This document shows, in pieces, positions 2,227-64,000 of a stretch of 64,000 bases of DNA (the stretch's first letter is position 1; every line of letters starts with the position of its first letter). The translations under genes were made by a program, and so were the position numbers. Origin of the DNA: Clostridia bacterium (GTDB lineage Bacteria; Bacillota; Clostridia; Oscillospirales; CAG-272); assembly GCA_017443595.1 (NCBI GenBank), contig JAFSYU010000016.1, forward strand, positions 1-64,000, given 5' to 3'. A model generated the notes under the pieces. That model did no database searches. It worked only from the letters and a program-made list of their open reading frames with translations, and was not told the origin of the DNA.

Positions 2227-4341
2227 ATGAACAATAAGCAAAAAATATCCGATATTCTGATGAAGGTCGAGAAGCTTGTGATCGTTCGCGCGGTGCGCGG
2301 CGGTCTTACTAATCTCATACCCGTTCTCACTATCGGCGCTTTTGCTCTGATTTTGAATACTTTCCCGGTCAAGCCGTATCAGGATTTTATAAACAGCTTT
2401 GCCGGAGGATTTCTGCCTTCGCTGTTCGAAATGGTGAATAAAGCCACGTTCGGCGTTTTATCTATTTATATGTCGTTTTCGATCAGCTACGCTTACGTCA
2501 AGCTGAAAGCGGATCCTGAGACGTCTTTCATAGGCGCGGCGTCCGCGTCAGTTGCTTCGTTTTTCATACTCGCCGGCGCGTATCTGCCGGATTTCAGCAC
2601 GGACAGGACCGGACCGAAATCGATGTTCCTTGCGATCCTTACCGGACTCGGCGCTTCGGCTCTTTATATGGTATTTGAGCGGCTTCTGCGAAAAACACGC
2701 AGACGTGTTCTGACTGCCGGGGCTGATAAAGAATTCAATAAGATCCTGTCAACTCTTTTGCCTATAGCAATAGTAGTAGTCATATTCGCTCTGTTCAACG
2801 CGTTTGTAACAAAGATTTTCAAAGTCGACTCGTTCCACGAGCTGCTCGGATCCGCGTTCGAGGCGATGTTCTCGATAGGCAGCGTAGGATATTTCAAAGG
2901 CTTCTGCTTTGTGCTTTTATCTTCTGTTTTGTGGTTCTTCGGTATACACGGAAGCGATACGCTTGAGGGCGTTATGCAGAAGTATTTTGCTCCGGGACTT
3001 GCCGTTAACCAGGTAGCTGTAGCGGCGGGAAACGAGCCTACGCAGATACTTACAAAAGAATTTTTTGACTGTTTCGTACTTATGGGCGGCTGCGGCTCCG
3101 CAATATGCCTTTTGATAGCAATACTTCTGTTTTCAAAAAACAGGGCGAGAAAAGGTCTCGGCATAACCGCGGCTTTCCCGATGATATTCAATATAAACGA
3201 GCTTATGGTGTTCGGACTGCCGATCATATTCAACCCCGTTATGCTCGTACCGTTCCTTTTGACGCCTCTCGCGTGCTATTCCGTTACGTATCTTGCGATG
3301 TCCGCCGGATGGGTACCGCTCATAACCTCGCAGGTTGAATGGACCACGCCTATACTTATAGGCGGATATCACGCCACGGGTTCCGTCGCAGGTCTTATAC
3401 TTCAGCTTGTTAACGTTATAATCGGCGTGCTTATATATCTGCCGTTTGTAAAGATACTTGATCAGCGTTCGCTTGAAAGCGCAAAAAGCAGATTTATTGA
3501 GTTTTCCGATTTCTTCCGTCAGCACGAGCAGGAGCTTATAACCACGCGTCTTACGGAAAGAAGCGATATGTACGGTGACCTTGCAAAGGAGCTTTGCGCG
3601 GAGATAAGGCATGAAATGGAGAGCAGGTTTGCGCTTGCGTATCAGCCGCAGTATTCATACGACGGAAAATGCGTGGGAGTTGAAGCGCTTTTGCGTTGGC
3701 GACATCCCGTTCACGGCGTTATATATCCGCCGCTTGTTGTTAAGCTGGCGGATGAAGGCGGATTTTTGCCTCAGCTTGAAGAGCTGGCGATCAAGCGCGC
3801 TATTGCAGAACGTCCCTACGTTCTTGAAAAATTCGGTCCGGACGTAAAGCTTTCCGTAAACGTGACCGGTATAACCATAATAACGCACCGTTTTGTCGAT
3901 TTCTGCGCTCAGCTGCAGAAAACGTACCCGATAGAAGATATGAATATATGTCTTGAGGTCACGGAACAGGCGGCGTTGCAGTTAAACAAAGAAGCCGGAA
4001 AAATGTTAAGATCTCTGCACGATATGGGATTCATGCTTGCGATAGACGATTTCTCCATGGGACAGACTTCCATCCATTATATGAAAGACAATATGTTTGA
4101 TATAATCAAGCTTGACGGGTCTTTGGTTCGCGGTCTGTTCGATCACACAAACACGCGTGAGATAATACTTTCCGTATCAAACCTTGCCGCCTCGCTCGGT
4201 ATGCAGATAATTGCGGAATACGTGGAAACGAAGGAGCAGAGAGAAGCTCTGCATGAACTCGGCTGCGAATGCTATCAGGGTTACCTGTATTCTCCGGCGG
4301 TGTTTCTTGAAGAGAAAACAGATATAAAAAAGAAGAATTAG
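2227..4341 (+). CDS. PTS EIIC (cellobiose-type) permease fused to EAL c-di-GMP phosphodiesterase
   Basis: A 704-residue fusion. Residues about 10-430 form a multi-spanning lactose/cellobiose-family EIIC membrane domain. It keeps the His in GIHG (H241) and the Glu in NINE (E325) that bind sugar in EIIC proteins. Residues about 455-690 form an EAL domain with the EALLR motif (E486), the LEVTE glutamate, DDF (D607/D608; the usual next Gly is Ser), the KLD lysine, the AEYVE glutamate (E664) and YQGY. The metal and catalytic residues are thus present, and the domain should hydrolyse c-di-GMP. A good AAGGAG site lies 7 bases before the ATG. No EIIA or EIIB gene is nearby, which favours a sugar sensor over a transporter. 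Fusions of this type are known in Firmicutes. Confidence 0.93.
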   Translation: MNNKQKISDILMKVEKLVIVRAVRGGLTNLIPVLTIGAFALILNTFPVKPYQDFINSFAGGFLPSLFEMVNKATFGVLSIYMSFSISYAYVKLKADPETSFIGAASASVASFFILAGAYLPDFSTDRTGPKSMFLAILTGLGASALYMVFERLLRKTRRRVLTAGADKEFNKILSTLLPIAIVVVIFALFNAFVTKIFKVDSFHELLGSAFEAMFSIGSVGYFKGFCFVLLSSVLWFFGIHGSDTLEGVMQKYFAPGLAVNQVAVAAGNEPTQILTKEFFDCFVLMGGCGSAICLLIAILLFSKNRARKGLGITAAFPMIFNINELMVFGLPIIFNPVMLVPFLLTPLACYSVTYLAMSAGWVPLITSQVEWTTPILIGGYHATGSVAGLILQLVNVIIGVLIYLPFVKILDQRSLESAKSRFIEFSDFFRQHEQELITTRLTERSDMYGDLAKELCAEIRHEMESRFALAYQPQYSYDGKCVGVEALLRWRHPVHGVIYPPLVVKLADEGGFLPQLEELAIKRAIAERPYVLEKFGPDVKLSVNVTGITIITHRFVDFCAQLQKTYPIEDMNICLEVTEQAALQLNKEAGKMLRSLHDMGFMLAIDDFSMGQTSIHYMKDNMFDIIKLDGSLVRGLFDHTNTREIILSVSNLAASLGMQIIAEYVETKEQREALHELGCECYQGYLYSPAVFLEEKTDIKKKN

Positions 4342-26548: not shown

Positions 26549-26576
26549 TTGAAATTACAAAAAATTATGGTAAAAT
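26549..26576 (+). promoter_or_regulatory. Promoter of OLE RNA
   Basis: TTGAAA (26549-26554), 16-bp spacer, TAAAAT (26571-26576). Transcription would start near 26583, the first base of the closing stem of the RNA. Confidence 0.7.
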
Positions 26577-26582
26577 ATAAAT

Positions 26583-27180
26583 GACGGTGCAGTATCCTAG
26601 TTTGAGAGAAGCCGTTTGAGGACGGGCCTAAAAATCCGTCAAAGGGCATATCGATGAAGCTCCTTGTGCTTGCTTCTTACGCCCAGTTTGGGGTGGGTGC
26701 TGGGAGATAGGTCTGAGGGCGTGCCGTAACGGCATACGGTTTTCGACCCTCTTACCGTGGAGGCCTTTGCTTGTGGTATTGACGTACCAGCGAAAACGTA
26801 TTACGGGCAGAGGATTAAACCTATCGCGCGGGGCATTTGTCGCTGTGGATAGTGTAGCCTGCCTTGAGTGGTTCCGGCGAATTCGGGATCAAAGCGGCGG
26901 CGCCCGGCCAGGCGCCGTAAGCTATCGCCTGATGAAACCGTCGCTGCAAAAGAGGCTAAAACGACCAAGCTCTTGATCGGGGAAATCCCCTAGGCTGTTT
27001 ATTTTTACAGTAAGGCAGACTGCGGATTGCAGTGCGGGAGACATAAGGCAATCGAGTCTCCGCTGCGGCGACGCGCGGACTTCTCCCGTAAAGGGAAACC
27101 GCCGATCGGTAACGAAAGGTGGGAGACGCGGAAATCGTACTCGACCTAATACCGCAAGGTTTACGCAGTCTGTTACCGTC
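26583..27180 (+). ncRNA. ole: OLE RNA (ornate large extremophilic RNA)
   Basis: About 600 nt without a credible coding frame, more GC-rich than the flanking intergenic DNA and dense in potential hairpins. The ends pair (GACGGT 26583-26588 with ACCGTC 27175-27180, extended by CAG/CTG). Internal helices include GAGGG 26715/CCCTC 26747 enclosing TGCCGT/ACGGCA, GGGG/CCCC around AAAT near 26980, and GGAGAC/GTCTCC near 27040-27060. The size (~600 nt), the position after ispA among nusB-xse-ispA-tlyA-recN genes and the following OapA-like gene are the known hallmarks of OLE RNA. In Bacillus halodurans OLE forms a membrane ribonucleoprotein with OapA and is linked to stress tolerance. Assignment is by context and structure, not by a covariance search. 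Confidence 0.85.
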
Positions 27181-27202
27181 TTTGATTTGAAAGGAAAAAG
27201 CA

Positions 27203-50956: not shown

Positions 50957-52654
50957 CTATACCTTCTTTTTCTTTGACGCGGCAATAAGAGCCAGAACTA
51001 AAAGAATAAATAATACTAAAGCGGCGACAATAATAATTATAACCGTTATAAATACTTTCTTAATTGCGGCAGTGGCGTTGTTATCTGTTTTTTCGGTATC
51101 TGTATTCCCGGCTTGTTGTGTGTCCGTATTATCTGTTTCTGTCGTTATCTCTTCTGTTTCTGTAAAACTTATTTCAGACAGAGAAGTGCCTTCATATTCC
51201 GTTTCTTTATCTGTCTCTGTTACAGATAAAGTATCCGTTTCTATTGCAGCTTCCGTGTCTGTAACGGGTTCTTCGGTGTCGGAATAAGCGGTTTCTTCAG
51301 TTACTGTTATTATCTCGGTTTCTGTTTCAGTTTCAGTTTCGGTAACCGTTTCCGTCTCGGTCTGCTGCGGTTCTTTATGTTCGGTTTTGCCTATAACGGT
51401 TCCTATGTAGTTTCCTTTCGGCTCACGCAGCTCGCCGCCGACGTAAGTGTAACTTTGTCCCGGTATACTTACCGTAACCGACAACTCAAAATCAGGATCT
51501 GCGTATTCTGAGTAGACGTAGTAAGATTTACCGGACTTAACAAGATATAAAACCGTAACGGTGTCGTTTTCTTTTACGTCTATCTGTCTGTTTAGATCAA
51601 GTGTGTAATAACCCTCGCAGTATGCCGTTCCGCTTGCAGCCGCGTCCGGCGACGCGGAGGAAATTTTTGATATATCAGATAAGTTTTTATAAACTCTTAC
51701 GCATATTTCCGACGACGGTTTATCTGTATATATACCCGCTTTGCATATCGTCATTTTTTCATCAATTTCAAAGACGTTTACAGCGCCGGATTCGCTTTTT
51801 GACGCATCATAACTGTTGCCGGAAGCGTATATCGTCTCCGTATGTGTAAGTACGCGGGTATCTTCATCAACAACAACGTTTGCGGCGTAAAAGTTCCTTC
51901 CAAACTCGGAATTGTAGGATATCCATGCATAGCCGTTATCGCCCCAGCTTTCGCCCCACGTATTTTTCATCAAAAACGCGCCTGTACCCGTATCGGTATA
52001 TTTAGTATCATCCCAGCCAACAAGGAGTATTACGTGCGAGGCTTTTGAATTATCGTACGTAAGGATACGCGCTACGGACGTGACTTTATTGTAATCGCCT
52101 ACAAATACGTCAGCATTGACTGAACCGTATTCGATTATAAGTCTTTTTACAGCCTCTGTGCGCTCCTTTCTGCTCATATCCGTTGTTTCCAAAATCCTTA
52201 TATCGTCAACGTAAGCGTTGCCGGAATAAAGAGCTGACTCAGGAGCGTTTAAAGCATCATCGACAGTGGGATAGTCTGAATTATATAAAAGTCCTTTTCC
52301 GGATATTGCCGCCATAAGAGCATAATCGTTTCCGCCGTAGCATCTGTACCAGGCGCTGCCGCGGCTGTGTCTGTGCTCGGTTCCGTCAAACTCCGCGCGC
52401 GCCATCATAGGAGCGGAGAACACGGTTTTACCGTTTTCGGCATATCCGTTTTTGACAGCGTTTATATTCAGCTGATCCGAGCATGAATACGCCCAGCAAA
52501 GCGGATCGTTCTTTTGATCAAGGACCGGCGTTTTAATATCCGTTACATATTTTGCCGGTAATTCATCAGCCGATACGTTTATCACAGCAAATGCGGAAGT
52601 CAGAATTACTGCCAGGAGAAATACCGCGGTAATTTTTTTAAAACATATTTTCAT
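50957..52654 (-). CDS. Membrane-anchored C1A (papain-family) cysteine protease
   Basis: A 565-residue surface protease. It has a signal peptide (about 1-28) and a papain-type domain with Q47, C53 in PLCWAYS, H207 in SHVILLVGWD and N231 in MKNTWGESWG, i.e. the full catalytic set. A beta-rich domain follows (about 265-420), then a Thr/Glu-rich linker built on TE/ET repeats (about 425-525), a membrane helix (about 532-558) and a KKKK tail. The predicted layout is extracellular catalytic domains on a flexible stalk anchored at the C-terminus. No prodomain is obvious before the active Cys. GAGG is 7 bases before the ATG. It could process surface proteins or degrade host or dietary protein. Confidence 0.92.
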   Translation of the reverse strand: MKICFKKITAVFLLAVILTSAFAVINVSADELPAKYVTDIKTPVLDQKNDPLCWAYSCSDQLNINAVKNGYAENGKTVFSAPMMARAEFDGTEHRHSRGSAWYRCYGGNDYALMAAISGKGLLYNSDYPTVDDALNAPESALYSGNAYVDDIRILETTDMSRKERTEAVKRLIIEYGSVNADVFVGDYNKVTSVARILTYDNSKASHVILLVGWDDTKYTDTGTGAFLMKNTWGESWGDNGYAWISYNSEFGRNFYAANVVVDEDTRVLTHTETIYASGNSYDASKSESGAVNVFEIDEKMTICKAGIYTDKPSSEICVRVYKNLSDISKISSASPDAAASGTAYCEGYYTLDLNRQIDVKENDTVTVLYLVKSGKSYYVYSEYADPDFELSVTVSIPGQSYTYVGGELREPKGNYIGTVIGKTEHKEPQQTETETVTETETETETEIITVTEETAYSDTEEPVTDTEAAIETDTLSVTETDKETEYEGTSLSEISFTETEEITTETDNTDTQQAGNTDTEKTDNNATAAIKKVFITVIIIIVAALVLFILLVLALIAASKKKKV

Positions 52655-52845: not shown

Positions 52846-54975
52846 TCATCTGTAAGCGTCGTTTATTTCTTTAAATACGTCGCTTACTTTATTATAAGAT
52901 GATTTAAGACGCTCCTTATATTCTATTTTATCTAATCCGTCAAATCCGCTGTCGTACAGTTTTATCAAACCTTCTGTACCGCATCCTATAAGTATTCTGT
53001 CAAACTCCCGATATTCAAGTTTAGAATCCGTTGGCTTTATACAGATCTTTAATTTCGGATTTTTTATTCCCAACAGATACCACGCGATCCTTAATTCAAG
53101 CCTGCCGTCGCTCGCTATATAAAAATCGGCTAACGTATCTTCTTCAGCGTTGCCGTATTTCAGCAAGCCTGATTCACGGTACTGCGGCTGCAGCGTTTTA
53201 TCAAGCGTCGGTATATAAGTCTCATTTGAGTTATATTCATATATCCTATTGAAAATACCGCTGTTATTTTTATACAAAATTCTATTTTCTTTGCCGAAGA
53301 CATTCTTATAGACAGAATATTTATAGTAAAACACGTCTGAATTGGCGTCTGTAAGCATTCTTGTGTTATCCTTGCCACTTATTATTAACATATAGTCAAC
53401 ATATTCTTCAAATATTAGCTCATATTCTGTACAGTTATTGCTTCCGGCGCCTGAAACTGATATGGGAACGTACAGTTTATCATGATAAAAATCAAAGCCG
53501 TCCGGCAAGTCAATTACAAGATGCAGATATTCCGCGTCGAATAACGTCCCAATCTTGGTATTTTCAATATAAGTCGTATAATTCCATTCATCAGAATTGC
53601 CGTCCGGGCAGGCTTTTGACGCATCAAACGCAAGTAAACCGTAACCCTGCTCAGCGGACGACAGTTCATGCGTTCTGTCATTCGGATCAGCCGGCGTATA
53701 TACTTCCGTATTCCACGTACGCTTGAACCATTCATCCTGCCAGCTGAATATCAACCCGCCGCAGCAGCCGGCCTGAGCGATATCACGGCTCATTTGTGTA
53801 AGCAGTGTTCCCTGCTCATTTTCCGTCATATTTCCCTGCTTATATCCGTTGATCCCGTTATGCGCCATTCCGCGCGTTGTGGATAAACCGTATTCCGCTA
53901 TTAGAAGCGGCACGGTATGAACGGCTTTCAGTTCGTCTAAATACGCTTTATAATTGTCTTCAAATTCCGTATAATCATAACTCATAAAATCCGGATAATA
54001 CGGATATACGTCGTACGCGGCAAACAAACCGGGATAATAATTTTCTTTACTTATAATATTTTCCGTATTGACAGATACAGAATCGTTTTCTTCTTTGAAC
54101 GGCTCGGACGGGTGATCAAGTGTATCAAGCGGCTGCCAGTTAAGAAATGAAACGGGAGTCTGATGATCATAATATTCAGTCTCGTATTTTATAAGATGAT
54201 CTCCCACTTCACATAAAAACGCTTCAAACGGTTTTGAGTCTTCTTTTGTTTTGATGTAATCACCGTCCGATCCATTTATGTTGTTGTGATATCTGTTTGT
54301 ATCCGCCACGAATTCCGACGGATATTCAAGCCCTAAAATATAACCTATAACGTATTTTGAAATATCTTTATCGTACACGGCTTTTTTTATTCTGCCGTAT
54401 GAAGTATAATCGCTGTTTCCGTGGACTATATCTATCGTTTCCTTTGCAGCGCGTTTGAATGATGAAAGTATTTCGTCGTCGTATGCGTCGCCTATATCAT
54501 ACATGAGTTCTTCGTTGAACCATACGCCGTGCATAAGATAAAGAGTATTATCCGGATCATTTTTATTGTGATCGTACAGCGCTTTATAAAAATCCGGATT
54601 CATAACGGAAAATACGCGCACAGTATTTGCGTTCATTTGGCTGATATAAGAAAACCAGCGCATATAAGTATCGTACGATATATCCGGGCTTGACAGATCC
54701 GTTCCGGGCTCCGTAAAGCCTATGTCAACGCCGGTTATATATATCAGTTTTCCTTTATTATCGCCTGTGTTTTTATAAAAATAGCCGTTATTTGACGCAA
54801 AAAACGGAACGGAAACAAAACCCGTATCCGGCAGATCTATTATAAGATCCGGCGTCGGATACTCAATTTTTAAGTCTTTATTACACGATACTGAAGATGT
54901 AAGAATAAAAAGCGATAAGACCGATATGACTATCGGTTTTATCGCTTTTTTTGCTTCTGTAATAAACTGTATCAT
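52846..54975 (-). CDS. Lipoprotein with TIM-barrel glycoside-hydrolase-like domain (copy B)
   Basis: 709 residues. Lipobox Cys31 (TSSVSC) anchors it outside the membrane. The core (about 60-430) looks like a clan GH-A barrel: ITGVDIGFTEPG, MNANTVRVFS, a first Glu E217 in GYILGLEYPS (acid/base position) and a second E361 in LLIAEYGLSTTRG (nucleophile position), then GLIFSWQDEWFKRTW. A C-terminal beta domain (about 470-690) follows. It is a close relative of the next gene upstream and shares the whole domain order. The gene is last in the leftward operon and touches its neighbour. The GH family and sugar specificity are not known; processing of the operon's polysaccharide is the likeliest role. 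Confidence 0.85.
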   Translation of the reverse strand: MIQFITEAKKAIKPIVISVLSLFILTSSVSCNKDLKIEYPTPDLIIDLPDTGFVSVPFFASNNGYFYKNTGDNKGKLIYITGVDIGFTEPGTDLSSPDISYDTYMRWFSYISQMNANTVRVFSVMNPDFYKALYDHNKNDPDNTLYLMHGVWFNEELMYDIGDAYDDEILSSFKRAAKETIDIVHGNSDYTSYGRIKKAVYDKDISKYVIGYILGLEYPSEFVADTNRYHNNINGSDGDYIKTKEDSKPFEAFLCEVGDHLIKYETEYYDHQTPVSFLNWQPLDTLDHPSEPFKEENDSVSVNTENIISKENYYPGLFAAYDVYPYYPDFMSYDYTEFEDNYKAYLDELKAVHTVPLLIAEYGLSTTRGMAHNGINGYKQGNMTENEQGTLLTQMSRDIAQAGCCGGLIFSWQDEWFKRTWNTEVYTPADPNDRTHELSSAEQGYGLLAFDASKACPDGNSDEWNYTTYIENTKIGTLFDAEYLHLVIDLPDGFDFYHDKLYVPISVSGAGSNNCTEYELIFEEYVDYMLIISGKDNTRMLTDANSDVFYYKYSVYKNVFGKENRILYKNNSGIFNRIYEYNSNETYIPTLDKTLQPQYRESGLLKYGNAEEDTLADFYIASDGRLELRIAWYLLGIKNPKLKICIKPTDSKLEYREFDRILIGCGTEGLIKLYDSGFDGLDKIEYKERLKSSYNKVSDVFKEINDAYR

Positions 54976-57188
54976 TATTCGCCCGTTCTGTACTGTGCCA
55001 GATATTTTTGCAGTACGTAGTACGAAGGCTTCAGTCTTTCATGCCACGCAGGATATGACCAGCCTTTCTGAATATAACTTCCGTTAATTTCTATTTCTGC
55101 TTTTTCACCGGTTTTTGTTATGCCGAAACCGAATGAAAAACTGTCGTACGAAACGGTTGAAAACATCTGATCAGCGTAAAAGTCACCTATCTGCTGTTTT
55201 GTAGAAGGATCCATAACGTTTAACAGCTGCCACGGTATACGTATCTCAACACAGCCGGAGCCGTAGCAGAAATCCGCTAAGGATTCATACTTTTCAGACG
55301 AGGGATTTCCGTTGCCGTACTTCAGTTTTCCCGTCTCGTATACTTTGTCCTTTACCGTTTCGCCCGTGCCTTTAACGGTAAGATTGTATCCGTAGCACAT
55401 AAGCATATCGTCAAAATATCCGCTGTCTTTTTTACCTGAGTTTTCTTTCGGCAACACGTCTACAAGCATTTTGGATTCAACAAAATAATAACGGAACGCG
55501 TCGTAATATCTGTCAACAAGTATATGAGAATCGTTTGCGCCGTGTATCTTTATAAGGAAATCCGCGTAATCGTTAAAAGTAAGTCCGTAATCGCGCGCTC
55601 TTGCATTTCCCTGCCCTTCTATCGTGTTGATCGGGATAAACAGCGTATCGTTGTTGAAATCGTAATTTTCCGCTTTAACGCAAATATATAGGTATCTTTC
55701 ATCATTCTGAACGTATATCGCGCCATGATCCGTTGTTGCGACGGCAGAAACGCCCTCCCAGTCGGAATATTCGCCGTCTATATAGCAAACGCAATGACGC
55801 GATCCGGGATCGAACGCCAAAAGACCGAAGCTCTGTTCACTTGTCTGTATATTGCTCCAGTAAGCGCGATGGTCGGCTAAATCGAACATTACGTTGTTCC
55901 AAGTGCGTTTGAACCACTCATCCTGCCAGGTAAATACAAGACCGCCGGCGTATCCCGTCTCATAGATAGAATCGAACATATCGGTAAGCATTTCGCCCTG
56001 TTTTGTCTCGTCAACGCCGCCCTGATTATAGCCCATTATGCTCTCGTGCCCCATTCCGCGCGACGTCGGAATACCGAATTCCGCAACGAGTATGGGCAGA
56101 TTGTGGACAAGTTTGAGGTCTTTAAGATACGCCTCATACGGATTTACTTTGTTTTTTTCGTCTCTGTAACTTATATAGTCTTCCTGATAGTTAAGGCTGT
56201 CCGGATAATAAGGATAAATATGATAAGACGCAAACATACCCGCGGCAAATTTACGCGATTTGATACTTTCCGAGTTTACAACGGCTTTGTCTTCATCCTG
56301 ATACGGCTCGTTAGGATGTATCAGCGGGTCCGTTGTTATCCAGTTTGTGACCGCGAACGGAGACTGAAAATTATAAGTTTCGCTCTGTTTTTTAATAACG
56401 GCGTCGCCTACGCGGCATAAAAAAGCTTCAAACGGCGTTGACGACTGAGTATATAAATATTCTCCGTCATATTCACGTTTGTCGGGATGCTGTGAGTTTG
56501 TATTAAGAACAAGGTTGGGATCCCATTCTATACCGATTATCCAGCCGGCAAGCCAGCGTGATACGTCCGTGCGGTACGTTCCCGACGCTTCGCCGGGACT
56601 CGGTGCGACTACGGCGTTACCGTGGATTATGTCTACAAGCGTCAGCGCGTCTTCCATAAATCCGTTCAATATCTTTTCGTTTTCGGCGTAAACGTCGTTT
56701 AATCTGTCAATATCCTCCTCGTTTACCCAAACGCCCTGGTACAGATAAAGCGGATTGTCAGCGGTCTTGTTATAATCGTTCAACGCGAGATAAAACTGCG
56801 GTCCCATAGCAGTATAAACGCGGATACAGTTGCAGTTCATTGCGGAAATATATCCAAACCACCTGTAATAAGTCTCATACGAGATGCTCAGATCTCCCGG
56901 GAATAGTCCCGGTTCCGTAGCGCCTATATTTACGCCGGTCATAAACAGTTTACGCCATTCGCCCTCACGGAATACGTAAAAATTCTGACCGTCCGCTTTG
57001 AATCTGTAATGGATATCCGTTTCAATATCCGTAAATTCATCCGCGTTCTTTACAAGGTCCGTGCTTTCCTGTTCTTTTTTTCTGAAAATGGATAACTGGT
57101 GGATACCGAAAGGAGCTAAAAGGCCCGTCTGAGCCAGTATAAAAAGGCATACGAGCGTTACTGCAACGGTAATAATGACTTTTTTCAC
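54975..57188 (-). CDS. Membrane-anchored TIM-barrel glycoside-hydrolase-like protein (copy A)
   Basis: 737 residues with an N-terminal membrane helix (about 3-22) instead of a lipobox. The barrel domain has MTGVNIGATEPG, MNCNCIRVYT, E221 in WIIGIEWDP and E370 in ILVAEFGIPTSRG, then GLVFTWQDEWFKRTW. The C-terminal beta domain includes YLYICVKAENYDF and VEIRIPWQLLNV. Both putative catalytic Glu are present, about 149 residues apart as in GH-A enzymes. The end and start codons overlap with both neighbouring genes, the glycosyltransferase upstream by 4 bases. It is a paralogue of copy B. It may trim, transfer or release the polymer made by the glycosyltransferase. Confidence 0.87.
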   Translation of the reverse strand: MKKVIITVAVTLVCLFILAQTGLLAPFGIHQLSIFRKKEQESTDLVKNADEFTDIETDIHYRFKADGQNFYVFREGEWRKLFMTGVNIGATEPGLFPGDLSISYETYYRWFGYISAMNCNCIRVYTAMGPQFYLALNDYNKTADNPLYLYQGVWVNEEDIDRLNDVYAENEKILNGFMEDALTLVDIIHGNAVVAPSPGEASGTYRTDVSRWLAGWIIGIEWDPNLVLNTNSQHPDKREYDGEYLYTQSSTPFEAFLCRVGDAVIKKQSETYNFQSPFAVTNWITTDPLIHPNEPYQDEDKAVVNSESIKSRKFAAGMFASYHIYPYYPDSLNYQEDYISYRDEKNKVNPYEAYLKDLKLVHNLPILVAEFGIPTSRGMGHESIMGYNQGGVDETKQGEMLTDMFDSIYETGYAGGLVFTWQDEWFKRTWNNVMFDLADHRAYWSNIQTSEQSFGLLAFDPGSRHCVCYIDGEYSDWEGVSAVATTDHGAIYVQNDERYLYICVKAENYDFNNDTLFIPINTIEGQGNARARDYGLTFNDYADFLIKIHGANDSHILVDRYYDAFRYYFVESKMLVDVLPKENSGKKDSGYFDDMLMCYGYNLTVKGTGETVKDKVYETGKLKYGNGNPSSEKYESLADFCYGSGCVEIRIPWQLLNVMDPSTKQQIGDFYADQMFSTVSYDSFSFGFGITKTGEKAEIEINGSYIQKGWSYPAWHERLKPSYYVLQKYLAQYRTGE

Positions 57189-58597
57189 TGTTCAAACTCC
57201 TTTCTCTTGATCTTTCCCCAGCTTCTGCGGAGCTTTCTGTATTTGATTATACCTTCAACTCTGAAAAGCGATATAAGCTGTCTGTAACCGAAATTTTCAA
57301 GCAGCGAGTAAAGCGATATCATAATGCTCTGCTTTACGGACATTGTTGTCTTATGCGTTAGCTGTTCAAGAACCAGACTGCCTTCTGAGAGTATAACGCC
57401 CAAAAGCACCGCCAAAAGGAAATACGTTACAAAGAAGAATATGTTAAGCTCTCCCATAAGAAGCGAAAACGGTATAAGAAAATATCCAATAGTTTCGATA
57501 AGCGCACCGAACAGCTCGAATATCCAGTTATAAGGTATTGAAAACAGTCCGACAAATCCGTAACGAGGATTTAAAAACATGGTGCGGTGTCTTATGAGCG
57601 TGTCCATAAGACCGACCTGCCAGCGGCGGCGCTGACTGCGAAGGTCATGGAGCGACATAGGGCCCTGCGTCCAGCAGACAGCTTCTTCATTGAATATTAT
57701 CCTGTATTTCTGCTTGTGCTTTTTCATATAGTGATGGATGTTCACTATAATTTCCATATCTTCGCCGATAGTATCCGTCTTGTATCCGCCAACGTCTATA
57801 ACGGTTTGTTTTCTGAAAAGTCCGAATGCGCCGGAAACTATAAGTATGGAGTTTGCGGCGGACCAGAACACACGTCCGGACAAAAACGAGCGGTAATATT
57901 CAACTATCTGGAATCTTTCAACGAGATGCTCCGGAACTGAAAATCCTTTGAATTCTCCGTCAACAATTTTTGATCCGTTTGCTATGCGAACAATTCCGCC
58001 GGCGCAAACGGTCCTTGAATCTTTGATGAAGTCAAGCGACAGTTTAAGCAAAGCGTCTTTTTCTATACGCGAGTCCGCGTCAAGACACGTGAACAGCGGA
58101 TATGAAGAAGCGTTTATACCGGCGTTGAGCGCGTCGGATTTACCTCCGTTTTCCTTATCCACAAAAAGTAAATTAGGATAATTGCGGCTGTAATAAACGC
58201 CGTTTACTTTTTTTGTCTGTATTATCATACGGGCTGATGATTCGATCGGATGCATATTGAAAGCGTCTATAATAAGCTGCCTCGTTTTATCCGTAGATCC
58301 GTCGTTTACGACTATTATCTCGAAATGCGGATAATTGATCTTCATCAGCGACTTGACGTTCTGTACGATATTCTCCTGTTCGTTATACGCCGGTATTATA
58401 AGCGATATGGGAAGCAGGTTTTCGCTTTCCGTATAGCGTTTGAAATCGTTTGAATACTGCTTGTTGTGATCTTTTCTTACTCTTGCAAAAGATACAAAAA
58501 GCTGAATAATATATATAATACTGAGTACGATCGTAAACGTCATACAGAAATAGTTGAATATAACTATAAAATGTCTTACAACGGTAAAAAAACTCAT
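57185..58597 (-). CDS. Processive family-2 glycosyltransferase (membrane polysaccharide synthase)
   Basis: A 470-residue BcsA/PgaC/HAS-type synthase. An N-terminal membrane helix (about 12-38) precedes the GT-A domain: IPAYNEQENI and VVNDGSTDKT, DADSR (173-177), GED (278-280) and QRRRW (322-326). The last is the mark of processive synthases that polymerise and extrude the chain. Several C-terminal membrane helices (about 345-430) would form the channel. No PilZ domain is present, so any c-di-GMP control must act through another protein. Cellulose, PNAG and hyaluronan-like products are all possible; none can be chosen from sequence. Confidence 0.93.
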   Translation of the reverse strand: MSFFTVVRHFIVIFNYFCMTFTIVLSIIYIIQLFVSFARVRKDHNKQYSNDFKRYTESENLLPISLIIPAYNEQENIVQNVKSLMKINYPHFEIIVVNDGSTDKTRQLIIDAFNMHPIESSARMIIQTKKVNGVYYSRNYPNLLFVDKENGGKSDALNAGINASSYPLFTCLDADSRIEKDALLKLSLDFIKDSRTVCAGGIVRIANGSKIVDGEFKGFSVPEHLVERFQIVEYYRSFLSGRVFWSAANSILIVSGAFGLFRKQTVIDVGGYKTDTIGEDMEIIVNIHHYMKKHKQKYRIIFNEEAVCWTQGPMSLHDLRSQRRRWQVGLMDTLIRHRTMFLNPRYGFVGLFSIPYNWIFELFGALIETIGYFLIPFSLLMGELNIFFFVTYFLLAVLLGVILSEGSLVLEQLTHKTTMSVKQSIMISLYSLLENFGYRQLISLFRVEGIIKYRKLRRSWGKIKRKEFEQ

Positions 58598-58613
58598 CTG
58601 TAAAGCTCCAAAA

Positions 58614-59690
58614 TCATAATTCTATCTCTTTATACAGAACGCTCTTGAGCGCGTCTGCGGCAAATCTGTCGTAACCGGATAATATCTCTTCAATGTCTTT
58701 GGGAGACACGTTCATGCTTACAAGTGCTTTTGCAGCCGTCTGGCGTACCCACCATTCTTTATCGTACAGTCCGCTTTTTACTACACGTAACGCCGACGGC
58801 GAGTTTATGTGCGCAAGTCCCTGCAGCGCCGCGCTTCTTATTACCCAGTCGTTATTCTGCGCGGCTATACAGAACGTCTGCTCGTCCTCCGGATCGCCGA
58901 AAGGCGCAAGCGCTTTGATACACGCTATTTGAAGTTGTTTGTCGTTTTCCGTAAAACCGAGCTGATACATTTGTTTGAATTCTTTCAGCTTGAACGGAGC
59001 CATTGCTTTTATAACAGTACATTTCATATAATGATTGCAGTCTGACAACAACAGTTTTGAAAGCTCGGCCCTGTCACCTTTGAATTCATCATAAAATTCA
59101 TTTATCATTCTTGCGGAATAAGTTTTGTCTCCCTGTATCTGTTTTATGTAATTGCAGACGCTTTGCGCGTCGCCTAACGTACACAGCGCCATTGCGGCGT
59201 TATACGACAGATCTCTGTCTGCCGCTTCCGTAAGTTTAACAAAAGTTTCTTTATACTGTACCGCTCCCATATCGGCAAGACGTCTGCAGGCGTAGCCCTT
59301 ATGATAAACGTCGCCGTTTGCAAGCATTTCAGCATATATCTCAACAGGTTTTACTTTTTCGTCAACAAGCGCGATTATCCTGTCTATCTGCTCTATATCA
59401 TCGTCTTTGTGATTTTCTTTCGCGCGTTTAAAACATTCAAGAGCAAGCTCGTAAGATTCCGCACATCCGCCTATCTTTTCCGCAAGCGTGCATATCTGTT
59501 GATCAAGCGCGTTATCCGTTGGAGCGTAAATAGTGCTTTCTATCAGTACGGTAAGCTGCTTTTCTAAATATTCGGTTGTATTTTTTTCGTTTTCGTGTCG
59601 CTGCGCAAGTCTGAAATGTATTATATATTCAATCACTGTAACGATGATGCAAAATATAATACCGGCAACGCCCCATAGCTCATATTTCAA
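58614..59690 (-). CDS. Membrane-anchored HEAT-repeat protein
   Basis: 358 residues: one N-terminal membrane helix (about 5-28), a helical region, then a series of HEAT-like repeats from about 125 to the end (for example YACRRLADMGA, YNAAMALCTLGD, IACIKALAPFGD, IRSAALQGLAHI, VRQTAAKALVSM). Such solenoids bind partner proteins. It sits between the pseudohydrolase and the glycosyltransferase genes with 13-16 base gaps. A scaffold or regulatory subunit of the membrane synthase is a reasonable inference, in the way TPR proteins serve in other secretion systems. No catalytic motif. Confidence 0.85.
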   Translation of the reverse strand: MKYELWGVAGIIFCIIVTVIEYIIHFRLAQRHENEKNTTEYLEKQLTVLIESTIYAPTDNALDQQICTLAEKIGGCAESYELALECFKRAKENHKDDDIEQIDRIIALVDEKVKPVEIYAEMLANGDVYHKGYACRRLADMGAVQYKETFVKLTEAADRDLSYNAAMALCTLGDAQSVCNYIKQIQGDKTYSARMINEFYDEFKGDRAELSKLLLSDCNHYMKCTVIKAMAPFKLKEFKQMYQLGFTENDKQLQIACIKALAPFGDPEDEQTFCIAAQNNDWVIRSAALQGLAHINSPSALRVVKSGLYDKEWWVRQTAAKALVSMNVSPKDIEEILSGYDRFAADALKSVLYKEIEL

Positions 59691-59703
59691 AATAGATCAC
59701 CTG

Positions 59704-62700
59704 TTATTTACCGGAAAAGTATTTTTTTATCGCCGTGTAGCTTTCCTTTTCTCTTAATACGTACTGTTTTACTTCTTTTAATTCCCATTTGAACGTCTTA
59801 TATCCCGGATCTGATTTGGCGCGCGGAAACGCGTAAAGCATATCGCCGCTGCCGCGTTCGCCTATCATAAGCGATATAAGCATACCGTTTGTCATAACGG
59901 TGTGAGCCTGTTCTCTGCCCTCAAGATCTTTGTCGTTTATAACGAGCATTGCGTTAGGGTCGGTAACGTTTAGCCACGTCCACGGCAGGCGGATGTAAAT
60001 CGTCGTACCGGTCTGGTAAAACTGATTGTCGCCGCTTGAAAATCCACCGTATGTAAGCTTTGTTACCTTATCGAATTTTCCGTCGTACATCTCCTTTGTA
60101 TATGCCGTGCCGCCGTCTCTGTTATACGTCGGTATAACGTATAATACCGCGTTTTGCTTGCTGTCAAACCTTAATACGTATTCCATGCCGGATAGCGAGT
60201 TATGCGTGAATTCGGAAGAATAGTAATATTCACCGTCGTTGCGCTGATACGTGTCAAGTCCAATGAACAGCGCCTCGTTTTTGTAATCTATATCATCCGA
60301 TAACTGTACGGTTATATACAGATATTCTTCGTTTGCTGACATGAGGATATGCTGCAGCCTGTCGTCGTCTGACAGCATCAATCCGACGCTTTCCGGTGCT
60401 GCGGCCTCAGTTGCGATAAGTCCGGCAGACTGGCTTTCATCGCATTTGTTATGCCAGTTTGCGTTATCCGAAAGCGGAACGGTGTAAACGGACATTTTAT
60501 CGTCCACCGGTGTCCAGTCGTCGTTAAGATCGAATATTACGGGTCCTAAAAGATTTGCGCTGTTTACCGCGTTAAGAACGGTTATTATGCGCTCGCCCTG
60601 CTCCGCTTCCGTCACCGCGCTTTGACCTAATACTGCGTTTACGTTTGAATACCTGATACCGCTTACGATAACGTTATCATACGCTTTCGCGGTTTCACGG
60701 AAAAGCTTCTCATAACCGGATGCGGTGCTCTTCTCTTCCTTTGCGTATTCGTTTAAAAGCGATTTGTCTAAATTAACGTCAATAAATTCATAGCGTTTGT
60801 TTTCATCACCGAAAACCGCATGCGCGTTTATCGCGCCGTTTTCTGTTTTGAATTTTGTACCGTCAAACGCGCGCATATCCGAATGAAGCGCAACGGGGCT
60901 GAAATAACCGTATTCTTTTGCGTGGAACTTGAAAACACAGTCAACGAGATAAGAACAGAAACCTTCTGTTGCCGAAGCGCTTTTTGAGTACGTGGCTTTA
61001 TATGAATACGTATCGCTGACTTTCAGGTCCGTAACGTCTATCGAATATCCGAGGATATAAGCGGATACGTCCGTGAAATACGCGGAATCTGATATTAACT
61101 CATCCGATAACGAATCACCGTGAAGCGCTCTAATCACGCTTTCGGTCTTTTTGACGCAGTTTTCTTCATTTACCTCATCCGGCAGATTTATCGTCTGAAT
61201 TATATATACGTTTTTGTCGCCGGACGATTTGTTGTACTTATACAAAGCCGAGTAAAACTCCGGCGGGAGCAGATCTTTTACGTAAATGCAGTTTGCGCCG
61301 AGATCCACGGCGTAGTAGATCAGCTTTTCATAATACGTAAGATCGCGTATATAATCGCTTCCGCCCGGCTCATGCGCGGTTATGCTGACGGATCTGAGCG
61401 GAAAATCAGCCCAGCTGTCGTTTACGTAGATCTGGAAAGTACCGCCGCTGATACGCGCGACGTCCGCGTGTTCCGTTTTATTTTCTTCAATATAATTTGA
61501 CTGCTGCGTATCTTTTAAAATATGACGTATCAGCGGATCGTAGAAGCGCCAGAAGAAATGCGTTATATCGCCCTGCGTATCATAGGAGATCAATTTAAAG
61601 AATTGATTTGCAAACAGGAATTTGTTGTATCTTGACCCTGACGTATAGTCGTCAAAATCTCCTGAAAAATAATATACAGGAGCGTGATTGGCGGCGGTTT
61701 TACGCGTTATTGCCGTAAATCTCGGATATTTGGACACTTCTTTAAAGCGTTCCATTCCGTTTGTATTCAAGTCAAATTCAAACGTAGCTATTGATTCAGA
61801 ACCGTAATTAGCTTCAACGAGTTCAAACCAGTTGTAGAAGTTACAGCCGCTAACGCCGGAAAATTCGCTTTTATACTCATCGTTTACGTAAATTTTAAGT
61901 AAGTTGGAAGAGTTGAAATCCTCGTTCTGCTGAAAAACAAGTATCTTTCCGTTTTCCGAGCATAAGAGTATGCCGGGGCCGCTGAATCTCCATTCTATAC
62001 CTTCCTGCTGTTCATACATAGGCTTTGCCCAGTCCGGCAGGTCGTTGAAATTCTGCAGATCCTGTATAAATCTTCCCACCCAGCCCGTCGGCGTCACTCC
62101 TAACAGATCCGTCAACTGTGATCTGACGGACTGCGTCATGGGTGTGTTGAATATAGTCATTTCCCCTATTATTGCGGAGCCGTTTTCGTAAGCGTGCGAA
62201 ATAACAGACATATCGTCCACCGTTATGCCGTCAGTCAAAGGATCGCCTCCGTCGTAATATCCGAAATTGTCGTTGCTTATGCCGTACGCGTCGGTTATAT
62301 AGAGCAGATCCGGCATTGCTTTTATGTTCTTTATCTGTTTATTACCGTTCAGTTTTCCTTCTTCATTAAGGATCGGTCCGTAATAATCGTTTTTATAATC
62401 GTAATATGTGCCGTCGCGTTTTACGTATTTCTGCTGATTCAGTATCCAGTAAAAGCCGTAATGCTTGCGATACATATTGCTCTTATCTGATTTGTTTTCT
62501 CCGGAATACGGTAAAACGGTTTTGTCTATAACGGCTACGTCAAGCGTTTTTTTAGGTATGAAAAACCAGCCTACGAATACAACTAACAACGCCAAAAGGA
62601 GAATCAAAGGTATTATGTAATACCATTTGACTTTTTTTCTTTTTACGACGTTTTTTAACGCAATATCAGTAAATTCCTTTTGTTTTGCGTCTTTTTCTGT

Positions 62701-62712
62701 ATTAGTGTCCAT
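59704..62712 (-). CDS. Large membrane protein with inactive glycoside-hydrolase-like module (copy C)
   Basis: 1002 residues. A cytoplasmic tail and one membrane helix (about 30-52) are followed by a roughly 350-residue alpha/beta region (strands LDVAVIDKTV, PDLLYITDAYG, GSAIIGEMTIF; possibly Rossmann-like). Residues about 420-960 align with copies A and B: TEAEQG with TENEQG, GPVIFDLNDDW with GGLIFSWQDEW, YLYITVQLSDDIDY with YLYICVKAENYDF, and IYIRLPWTWLNV with VEIRIPWQLLNV. At both catalytic positions Glu is replaced (S557 in YILGYSID; G685 in VIVSGIRY). I infer a non-catalytic, polymer-binding or scaffold subunit. The start is coupled to the HD-GYP gene 4 bases upstream. Confidence 0.82.
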   Translation of the reverse strand: MDTNTEKDAKQKEFTDIALKNVVKRKKVKWYYIIPLILLLALLVVFVGWFFIPKKTLDVAVIDKTVLPYSGENKSDKSNMYRKHYGFYWILNQQKYVKRDGTYYDYKNDYYGPILNEEGKLNGNKQIKNIKAMPDLLYITDAYGISNDNFGYYDGGDPLTDGITVDDMSVISHAYENGSAIIGEMTIFNTPMTQSVRSQLTDLLGVTPTGWVGRFIQDLQNFNDLPDWAKPMYEQQEGIEWRFSGPGILLCSENGKILVFQQNEDFNSSNLLKIYVNDEYKSEFSGVSGCNFYNWFELVEANYGSESIATFEFDLNTNGMERFKEVSKYPRFTAITRKTAANHAPVYYFSGDFDDYTSGSRYNKFLFANQFFKLISYDTQGDITHFFWRFYDPLIRHILKDTQQSNYIEENKTEHADVARISGGTFQIYVNDSWADFPLRSVSITAHEPGGSDYIRDLTYYEKLIYYAVDLGANCIYVKDLLPPEFYSALYKYNKSSGDKNVYIIQTINLPDEVNEENCVKKTESVIRALHGDSLSDELISDSAYFTDVSAYILGYSIDVTDLKVSDTYSYKATYSKSASATEGFCSYLVDCVFKFHAKEYGYFSPVALHSDMRAFDGTKFKTENGAINAHAVFGDENKRYEFIDVNLDKSLLNEYAKEEKSTASGYEKLFRETAKAYDNVIVSGIRYSNVNAVLGQSAVTEAEQGERIITVLNAVNSANLLGPVIFDLNDDWTPVDDKMSVYTVPLSDNANWHNKCDESQSAGLIATEAAAPESVGLMLSDDDRLQHILMSANEEYLYITVQLSDDIDYKNEALFIGLDTYQRNDGEYYYSSEFTHNSLSGMEYVLRFDSKQNAVLYVIPTYNRDGGTAYTKEMYDGKFDKVTKLTYGGFSSGDNQFYQTGTTIYIRLPWTWLNVTDPNAMLVINDKDLEGREQAHTVMTNGMLISLMIGERGSGDMLYAFPRAKSDPGYKTFKWELKEVKQYVLREKESYTAIKKYFSGK

Positions 62713-62716
62713 TATA

Positions 62717-64000
62717 TCACACCGTTTCTTTCTTTATATAAGGTCTGCTTACGCAGCGGACGAATGCTTCCGCCGCTGATTTGTCAAACGAAGTACCTTT
62801 ATTTTCGTTTATGAAGCTGATTGCGTCTTTTGTTGTCCATCTCTTTTTATAAGGTCTGTCAGATACAAGCGCGTCGTAAACGTCGCATACCGAAACTATC
62901 CTTGCTGACAGAGGTATATCCTCTCCCTTCAAGCCGTAGTAACCGCCGCCGTTATATTTTTCATGATGATAATTTGCTATATCCGCAGACGTTTTTATAA
63001 TTTCGTTTTTGTCAAACGCGGATATCATTTTGCCGCCGAATTCGGCGTGTTCCATCATAGTTATATATTCGTATTCGTTAAGTCTGCCGTCTTTTACGAA
63101 AAGGTCGCTTGATACCGCGTTTTTGCCTATATCATGCAGGTACGCGGCGCGCGCGGTCACTTCCGCTACTTCTTTTTTCATGTGCAGTTCTATGCACAGC
63201 TCGTACGTAAGATCGTGAACGCTCTTTAAGTGTTCCTCACTCTCGTTTGCTTCGGACGCGTAGTCGTACAGCAGCGCAAACGCGCTGTCTTTGTTTAAAA
63301 ATACTTTATCATACGAAGCCTGCAGACCGCAGTACAGATATCTCATCATTTTTGTAAAGAAAGCGTTCAATCCGTCGTCAATGCCTTCAAAGTACATAAC
63401 GGCGCAAACGGCGTTTTCATTTTTTATAATGAATGAAACGTAGGTCTGTGATATCAAGCAGTTTTTGCTGTTGAACGCGCCGTTATTTACGATCATATCG
63501 TATCTGCAGTTTTTTACGCCGCTGTTTATGATCTCATCGTATCCGCCGTCTTCGCATACGGCAACACCGCAGCAAACTTGTCTGTTATCAAAATACGCGC
63601 TTATGACTTCACCTATTTTATCAGACGTATACTTGAAATAATTACTGTTGTTTGTATTTTCCAAAATATCTTTTACGCAGTCGCAAACTTTACTTAGATA
63701 TTCACCGCAGAATTTGTTTATATCTACCTGTATTTTGTTCAGCTTCATTGCTTTGTTGTCAAAATAAGACGCAAAGAACAAAACCGCGGATACGGAAACG
63801 GAAGACAAAGACATAACAAACATATACATCCTGTCCGCGCGCAAAATTATCAGCACGCCGCACAGTACGGCGTTCAAAAACTGTATCATTGATGCGATCA
63901 CGACGGGCGTCGTTATCTGCGCTCTGTTCTGAACGTTCCTTACTGAAAAGCTGAAAGTAATAAAGCTTGAGATTACAGACAGTATGACCGCAATAATGCT
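62717..64000 (-). CDS. Membrane HD-GYP-type phosphodiesterase (5' end off window)
   Basis: The frame stays open to the right window edge, so the N-terminus is missing; a GTG at 63901 is only an internal possibility. The visible part has three or more membrane helices, a GAF-like region (about 75-215 counted from 63901) and a C-terminal HD-GYP domain. The metal-binding HD is in YLHDIGK, followed by EHAEFGGKMI and the signature YHHEKYNGGGYYGLKGEDIP. The usual GYP reads GYY here. Downstream residues (ARIVSVCDVYDAL, SDRPYKK) are normal. HD-GYP domains hydrolyse c-di-GMP. Its place at the head of the polysaccharide genes suggests local control of polymer synthesis. Confidence 0.9.
   Translation of the reverse strand, partial: SIIAVILSVISSFITFSFSVRNVQNRAQITTPVVIASMIQFLNAVLCGVLIILRADRMYMFVMSLSSVSVSAVLFFASYFDNKAMKLNKIQVDINKFCGEYLSKVCDCVKDILENTNNSNYFKYTSDKIGEVISAYFDNRQVCCGVAVCEDGGYDEIINSGVKNCRYDMIVNNGAFNSKNCLISQTYVSFIIKNENAVCAVMYFEGIDDGLNAFFTKMMRYLYCGLQASYDKVFLNKDSAFALLYDYASEANESEEHLKSVHDLTYELCIELHMKKEVAEVTARAAYLHDIGKNAVSSDLFVKDGRLNEYEYITMMEHAEFGGKMISAFDKNEIIKTSADIANYHHEKYNGGGYYGLKGEDIPLSARIVSVCDVYDALVSDRPYKKRWTTKDAISFINENKGTSFDKSAAEAFVRCVSRPYIKKETV

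Follow-up and report, generated by a model that had tools for sequence, protein, structure and literature searches.

A glycosidase-HEAT-glycosyltransferase operon of a Clostridia bacterium as a candidate synthase-dependent exopolysaccharide system linked to cyclic di-GMP

At the right-hand end of a 64,000-nucleotide stretch of contig JAFSYU010000016.1 from a Clostridia bacterium (assembly GCA_017443595.1, a rumen-type genome; the whole stretch is called the window below), six leftward open reading frames (ORFs) follow each other with gaps of -4 to +16 bases (Table 1), confirming the tight packing described in the first-pass annotation, which had proposed an undescribed polysaccharide operon linked to cyclic di-GMP (c-di-GMP). 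From left to right, the products measure 709, 737, 470, 358 and 1002 amino acids (aa), and the sixth ORF crosses the window edge. Pfam families were matched by the family 2 glycosyltransferase (GT2; PF00535, 3.7e-24), the HEAT-repeat protein (HEAT; HEAT_2, 3.8e-18) and the HD protein (HD_5, 4.1e-25); no Pfam family was matched by the three hydrolase-like proteins, namely, the glycoside hydrolases (GH) GHa and GHb and the pseudo-glycosidase PH, which are paralogues of one another. The gene order HD-PH-HEAT-GT2-GHb-GHa was found intact in 31 other fetched records, which come from 30 distinct loci (a single locus underlies both L038 and L077), and the junctions in these records are mostly overlapping or shorter than 100 bp. 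Because the order is intact in so many records, the co-occurrence of the six genes is not due to chance.

Table 1. Genes of the operon and of its extension beyond the window edge. Positions are window coordinates unless prefixed L002 (L002:4909 is window coordinate 64909).
Feature	Position	Strand	Remarks
GHa, second glycosidase paralogue, possible lipoprotein (SVSC)	52846..54975	-	both catalytic Glu kept
GHb, membrane-anchored glycosidase of clan GH-A whose C-terminal domain is a beta-sandwich	54975..57188	-	Glu221 and Glu370 kept
GT2, processive-type synthase without PilZ	57185..58597	-	motifs NDGS, DADS, GED, QRRRW
HEAT, one N-terminal transmembrane helix followed by HEAT repeats	58614..59690	-	Pfam; predicted cytoplasmic
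PH, membrane-anchored unique domain of about 400 aa, pseudo-glycosidase (clan GH-A fold) and beta-rich C-terminal part	59704..62712	-	
HD protein, C-terminal part in window	62717..64000	-	full gene L002:2717-4909, to window coordinate 64909
58-aa coiled-coil ORF	L002:4914-5090		on the L002:5092 side of the HD gene; starts directly after the lipoprotein stop
229-aa lipoprotein gene	L002:5092-5781		precedes the 58-aa ORF and the HD gene

The four processive motifs of the synthase are present in all 32 GT2 copies. Its nearest NCBIfam model is that of PgaC/IcaA (TIGR03937; 140 bits, cut-off 422), followed by the XrtG-associated glycosyltransferase model (TIGR03111; 124 bits against 364) and the BcsA/CelA model (TIGR03030; 43 bits against 699), and BcsA structures were also among its matches. 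The score for the XrtG-associated set thus lies below its cut-off, in a comparison that covered the synthase model. PilZ had been reported as missing, and indeed this domain was detected neither among the operon proteins nor elsewhere in the host genome.

The HEAT protein shows more positive charge after its single N-terminal transmembrane helix in 70 of the 84 copies, and because of this positive-inside bias its repeats are predicted to be cytoplasmic. Contact between HEAT and GT2 is argued for by locus L055, in which HEAT is fused to the N terminus of GT2. On the basis of the predicted topology and this fusion, the initial suggestion that HEAT takes the place of the periplasmic TPR subunits of known systems was rejected.

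The model of GHb (predicted local distance difference test, pLDDT, of 88.6) comprises a barrel and a beta-rich C-terminal domain. Glu221 follows strand 4 (213-218) and Glu370 lies in strand 7 (366-371), so that the modelled protein has the barrel and the catalytic glutamates after strand 4 and at the end of strand 7 that define clan GH-A, although the residue preceding Glu221 is not the usual Asn of this clan. The nearest solved fold is that of GH157 (9g4n; Z 32.8, root mean square deviation 2.3, 316 aligned residues, 14% identity); the sequence had no match among PDB sequences at E<=1. The protein with this fold is an endo-beta-1,3-glucanase, and at 14% identity this likeness was not accepted as proof of the identity of the polymer. 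All three proteins had been noted as hydrolase-like paralogues; all 14 GHa and all 14 GHb sequences examined retain both catalytic glutamates, and the pseudohydrolase is PH alone, the nucleophile being lost in all 14 members of its clade that were examined. GHa and GHb carry a predicted N-terminal transmembrane helix or lipobox-like signal, which would place a hydrolase of the operon outside the cytoplasm. The N-terminal domain of PH matched neither Pfam nor PDB sequences, and the matches listed by the fold search with PH, in which the N-terminal part was not searched by itself, were taken up by the glycosidase domain. In the tree of these proteins, GHa and GHb form one clade each, the PH of the operon is sister to PH-type proteins of Paenibacillus and Peribacillus, and GHb is sister to the GH of the same genera. 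On the basis of this tree, the window-type operon looks like the four-gene set of Paenibacillus to which HD and GHa have been added.

Hidden Markov model (HMM) labelling of 105 loci revealed several layouts, in most of which GT2 and HEAT are the constant neighbours. The complete HD-PH-HEAT-GT2-GHb-GHa layout occurs in rumen and gut metagenome-assembled genomes (MAGs) of the Oscillospirales type, GH-PH-HEAT-GT2 in Paenibacillus and Peribacillus, GH-HEAT-GT2 in Clostridium, Oscillibacter and Treponema, and HEAT-GT2-PH in Neobacillus and Lysinibacillus. Acetobacterium has a GH together with HEAT-GT2 and the N-terminal domain of PH as a stand-alone protein of 373 aa. Many Clostridia, including L044-L062, possess the series VTC-DUF4956-CotH-GH-HEAT-GT2 (VTC-type loci), often followed by a GGDEF/EAL gene. 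Two plasmid records, whose annotation is independent of this labelling, were confirmed by HMM: that of Planococcus maritimus lists polyphosphate polymerase, DUF4956, CotH, a hypothetical protein, HEAT and a glycosyltransferase, and that of Deinococcus radiophilus a TPR-GH protein, HEAT and a glycosyltransferase. The Deinococcus GH homologue (L174:8626-11052) bears an N-terminal TPR domain. Sequence comparison established that the GH-HEAT-GT2 core is common to the window operon, the VTC-type loci and the Planococcus plasmid; none of VTC, DUF4956 and CotH is present in the window operon. Members of the GH family were found in 22 of 295 sampled genomes of the order, 27 of 391 of the class, where many families are represented for the core, and 23 of 398 of the phylum. 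A scan of named genomes yielded 562 confirmed GH relatives among its candidates, of which the best 80 were kept. A search of 98 genomes of the same family returned no close six-gene relative, only weak matches in three other genomes. The three-gene core of a clan-A glycosidase, a membrane-anchored HEAT protein and a processive GT2 is widely distributed among Bacillota, with further occurrences in Deinococcus and Treponema.

The link to c-di-GMP involves both an enzyme and RNA elements. The HD protein is a membrane protein of 730 aa with an ectodomain, a transmembrane bundle and an HD_5 phosphodiesterase domain that matches PF13487 at 87-89 bits. Its original designation as HD-GYP holds for the metal ligands (HD, H, HH and a downstream D), which are conserved across 32 aligned orthologues, but not for the GYP motif, which is absent in 32/32 (proline in 0/32); the position reads GYY in the window copy and GYI, GYM, GNN, GTN and others elsewhere. 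The host genome has 14 GGDEF and 6 EAL domains and 2 c-di-GMP-I riboswitches. A second c-di-GMP enzyme in the window is a 704-aa ORF with an EAL domain (2227-4341, plus strand; domain at C60:3607-4296).

Rfam placed c-di-GMP-I riboswitches at a distance of 30-61 bp before the VTC gene in six loci of the VTC type, and it detected none in eight further loci of this type. A home-made model built from eight of the riboswitches found produced 38 matches in about 2 Mb. Of these, 23 lie on the coding strand and no more than 1.3 kb before the first labelled gene, where about 1.2 would be expected (p 1.5e-25, a value that overstates the case and is not independent evidence, because the loci are related and some of them served to train the model). 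The positional pattern does not depend on this p-value, and several of the riboswitches were confirmed by Rfam's own model in the loci on which it was run. In the six-gene type, the riboswitch lies ahead of a lipoprotein-type gene in L065, L083, L084, L089, L090, L091 and L093, and ahead of other short genes in L039 and L127. In Paenibacillus and in L114 it precedes the gene of a 298-299-aa secreted protein, which is itself ahead of GH. This protein (L094:8785-9681 and L114:8741-9640, from Paenibacillus and a Clostridiaceae MAG) has a conserved H-LDVEPY motif and is possibly another glycosidase. Further c-di-GMP-I riboswitches were seen downstream of six-gene operons, 12-16 kb from the operon head (L073:14592, L065:15868 and 17817, L083:15561, L084:14830, L093:15534), and a fluoride riboswitch lies near the operon at L039:15457-15529 (minus strand). 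Outside the six-gene type, the enrichment of c-di-GMP enzymes is mild (odds ratio 2.7, p 0.015). The proposed control by c-di-GMP is thus well supported for the family, with riboswitches upstream of 23 operons; in the window copy, the link consists solely of the GYP-less HD phosphodiesterase.

The contig runs to 72,183 bp, and the operon is cut only by the window edge at 64,000. As anticipated, the operon continues past this edge, where the start of the HD gene, the 58-aa ORF and the lipoprotein gene were located. A GTG at L002:4909, 909 bp past the edge, is preferred as the HD start because the mechanical ORF start overlaps the 58-aa ORF, and the resulting length fits that of the HD orthologues, mostly 729-755 aa. 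Homologues of the lipoprotein occupy the same place, ahead of HD, in 27 related records, and eight genes is therefore the best count for the operon. No promoter was detected in a scan of the region ahead of the HD gene. The gene of an 803-aa beta-helix surface protein (L002:5825-8236, minus strand) ends 43 bp upstream of the lipoprotein gene and may belong to the same transcript. Just downstream of the operon (50957-52654, minus strand) is the gene of a papain-family protease with a lectin-like domain and a Thr/Glu-rich tail that ends in a transmembrane helix. The window also contains a complete OLE RNA (26568-27195, plus strand; RF01071, 433 bits).

Judged from the gene set and its conserved order, the synthase motifs, the riboswitches of the relatives and the pattern of kept and lost catalytic residues, the operon is very probably responsible for making a secreted sugar polymer and for trimming it. 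A synthase-dependent exopolysaccharide system with a HEAT partner, outer glycosidases and c-di-GMP control is the best explanation and is considered likely. We infer that GT2 would polymerise a sugar from a nucleotide-sugar donor and extrude the chain through its own transmembrane helices. HEAT, anchored by one helix and with its repeats beside the glycosyltransferase domain in the cytoplasm, would always accompany the synthase and either gate or assemble it. On the outer side of the membrane, GHb and GHa may act on the growing chain by cleaving or transferring it, which is the task of PslG, BcsZ and CcsZ in their respective systems. The inactive glycosidase PH, which has an additional surface domain, may bind or guide that chain. 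Control by c-di-GMP would be exerted by the riboswitch in many relatives. In the window variant, this role would fall to the membrane HD phosphodiesterase encoded in the operon itself, which on receiving an external signal would reduce the c-di-GMP level close to the synthase. Besides the caveat on the p-value, several observations weigh against this explanation. No riboswitch was found at the window operon with the unfiltered home-made model, the lax Rfam threshold or a motif search (the best home-made-model score, 14.6 bits, falls inside a coding gene), nor at most rumen copies of the operon. Among the 48 non-redundant loci that are not of the six-gene type, only 10 have a c-di-GMP enzyme in the operon, no known c-di-GMP receptor domain was recognized among the operon proteins, and no experiment on any member of the family was found in the literature.

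Other explanations were weighed against the same data. The product might be a wall-attached glycopolymer, or a decoration of a surface protein or spore layer, with the CotH kinase of related loci phosphorylating the product or its carrier. The CotH neighbours of many relatives, the Gram-positive host and the predicted membrane or surface anchoring of the whole protein set would suit this function, but the window operon includes no CotH, ligase or lipid-carrier enzymes, and c-di-GMP riboswitch control, as seen in the relatives, is what matrix and adhesion genes typically show. Processive synthases of the QRRRW type, moreover, need no lipid carrier, and this alternative is regarded as unlikely. 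Still less probable is a divergent Pga/Ica-type (poly-N-acetylglucosamine, PNAG) or Bcs/Ccs-type (cellulose) system with replaced accessory subunits: PgaC/IcaA is the best curated model for GT2 and BcsA structures match, but the scores remain far below the cut-offs, PilZ is missing from operon proteins and genome, and no deacetylase, MBOAT, DHHW or CBM11 protein was detected among the scanned operon proteins. It is very improbable that the operon serves glycan degradation, with two glycosidases digesting a host or plant glycan and an incidental GT2. Although both glycosidases look active by sequence, the relatives live in the rumen and the modelled fold is nearest to an endo-beta-1,3-glucanase, GT2 and HEAT stay together across most layouts, the operon has no transporter or sugar-uptake gene, and a c-di-GMP riboswitch heads many copies.

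Compared with known systems, the exopolysaccharide explanation finds one of its closest counterparts in NELoc-2 of Clostridium perfringens, which, like two other loci, is linked to necrotic enteritis strains of this species and associated with disease in chickens. Its gene list comprises VTC (232 and 230 aa), a 226/222-aa membrane protein, CotH (497 aa), a conserved hypothetical protein (685 aa), HEAT (377 aa) and a glycosyltransferase (466 aa) (Lepp 2010, PMC2879425 Table 4); the series is repeated in PMC11677781, and two of its genes were down in vivo (PMC4983038). The series matches the VTC-DUF4956-CotH-GH-HEAT-GT2 layout of L044-L062 and of the Planococcus plasmid, a match drawn from the published table and not from sequence comparison, and differs from the window operon in that PH, a second GH and an HD gene are not in its list. 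Lepp 2010 took the 226-aa protein for tubulin/FtsZ and the glycosyltransferase for a chitin synthase (PMC2879425). CP4_0461 and CP4_0464, called tubulin/FtsZ there, agree in length and position with DUF4956 membrane proteins (PMC2879425 Table 4). No paper that describes GH-HEAT-GT2 as an exopolysaccharide system, or joins these pieces, was found in a search that had most subscription literature outside its reach. The core is not wholly undescribed, given NELoc-2 and the CotH, VTC and DUF4956 genes noted beside pel, but in neither case were the genes interpreted as such a synthase.

A bolder proposal, which we regard as doubtful, is that of a major unnamed class of c-di-GMP-controlled GH-HEAT-GT2 synthases in Bacillota, Deinococcota, Spirochaetota and Mycoplasmatota-like genomes, with a cytoplasmic HEAT protein replacing PilZ as activity switch and, in the window variant, with the conserved dead glycosidase guiding the polymer; it would also explain NELoc-2. 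If the exopolysaccharide explanation is right, a whole type of Gram-positive biofilm-matrix synthase has escaped notice, the reason being that no Pfam family covers its hydrolase and that annotations call its parts 'hypothetical', 'HEAT repeat' or 'CotH'. There would then be a testable function for NELoc-2 and a matrix polymer in rumen bacteria, and one would have to ask which component senses c-di-GMP when the synthase system has no PilZ.

The kind of system, synthase-dependent exopolysaccharide production, is a known one, and the variant appears to be unnamed in the literature found and distinct from Bcs/Ccs, Pga/Ica and Pel; as the first-pass annotation had stated, its parts fit no named set, membership being ruled out by the curated scores and the missing parts. 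The absence of an outer-membrane module, counted there as an oddity, is expected for a Gram-positive organism. The PNAG synthase PgaC/IcaA is likewise a GT2 without PilZ and the closest curated family, but the operon has no PgaB/IcaB deacetylase and no PgaD. We know of no HEAT or glycosidase set for NfrB-type synthases. The NfrB-type exopolysaccharide synthase of E. coli also stands outside the classical sets and is under local c-di-GMP control, but it belongs to a Gram-negative organism and has other partners (PMC8669469). The clostridial ccsZABHI locus shares the Gram-positive synthase-dependent layout of a GT2 with a surface clan-A hydrolase, CcsZ being a GH5 enzyme; the PilZ domain of CcsA, the CBM11-like CcsB and the O-acetylation pair CcsH/CcsI are all absent from the window operon (PMC7710045). 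The Gram-positive Pel locus differs in its components, as Pfam and NCBIfam detected no PelD, PelE, PelA, PelF or PelG in the operon, whose synthase is a GT2 with a HEAT partner. It resembles the present system in being a c-di-GMP-linked exopolysaccharide locus: CotH, polyphosphate polymerase and DUF4956 accessories adjoin pelDEADAFG, where a regulatory role has been proposed for them (PMC7112168), and these accessories, together with diguanylate cyclase/phosphodiesterase genes, are common to pel and to the GH-HEAT-GT2 core of the relatives.

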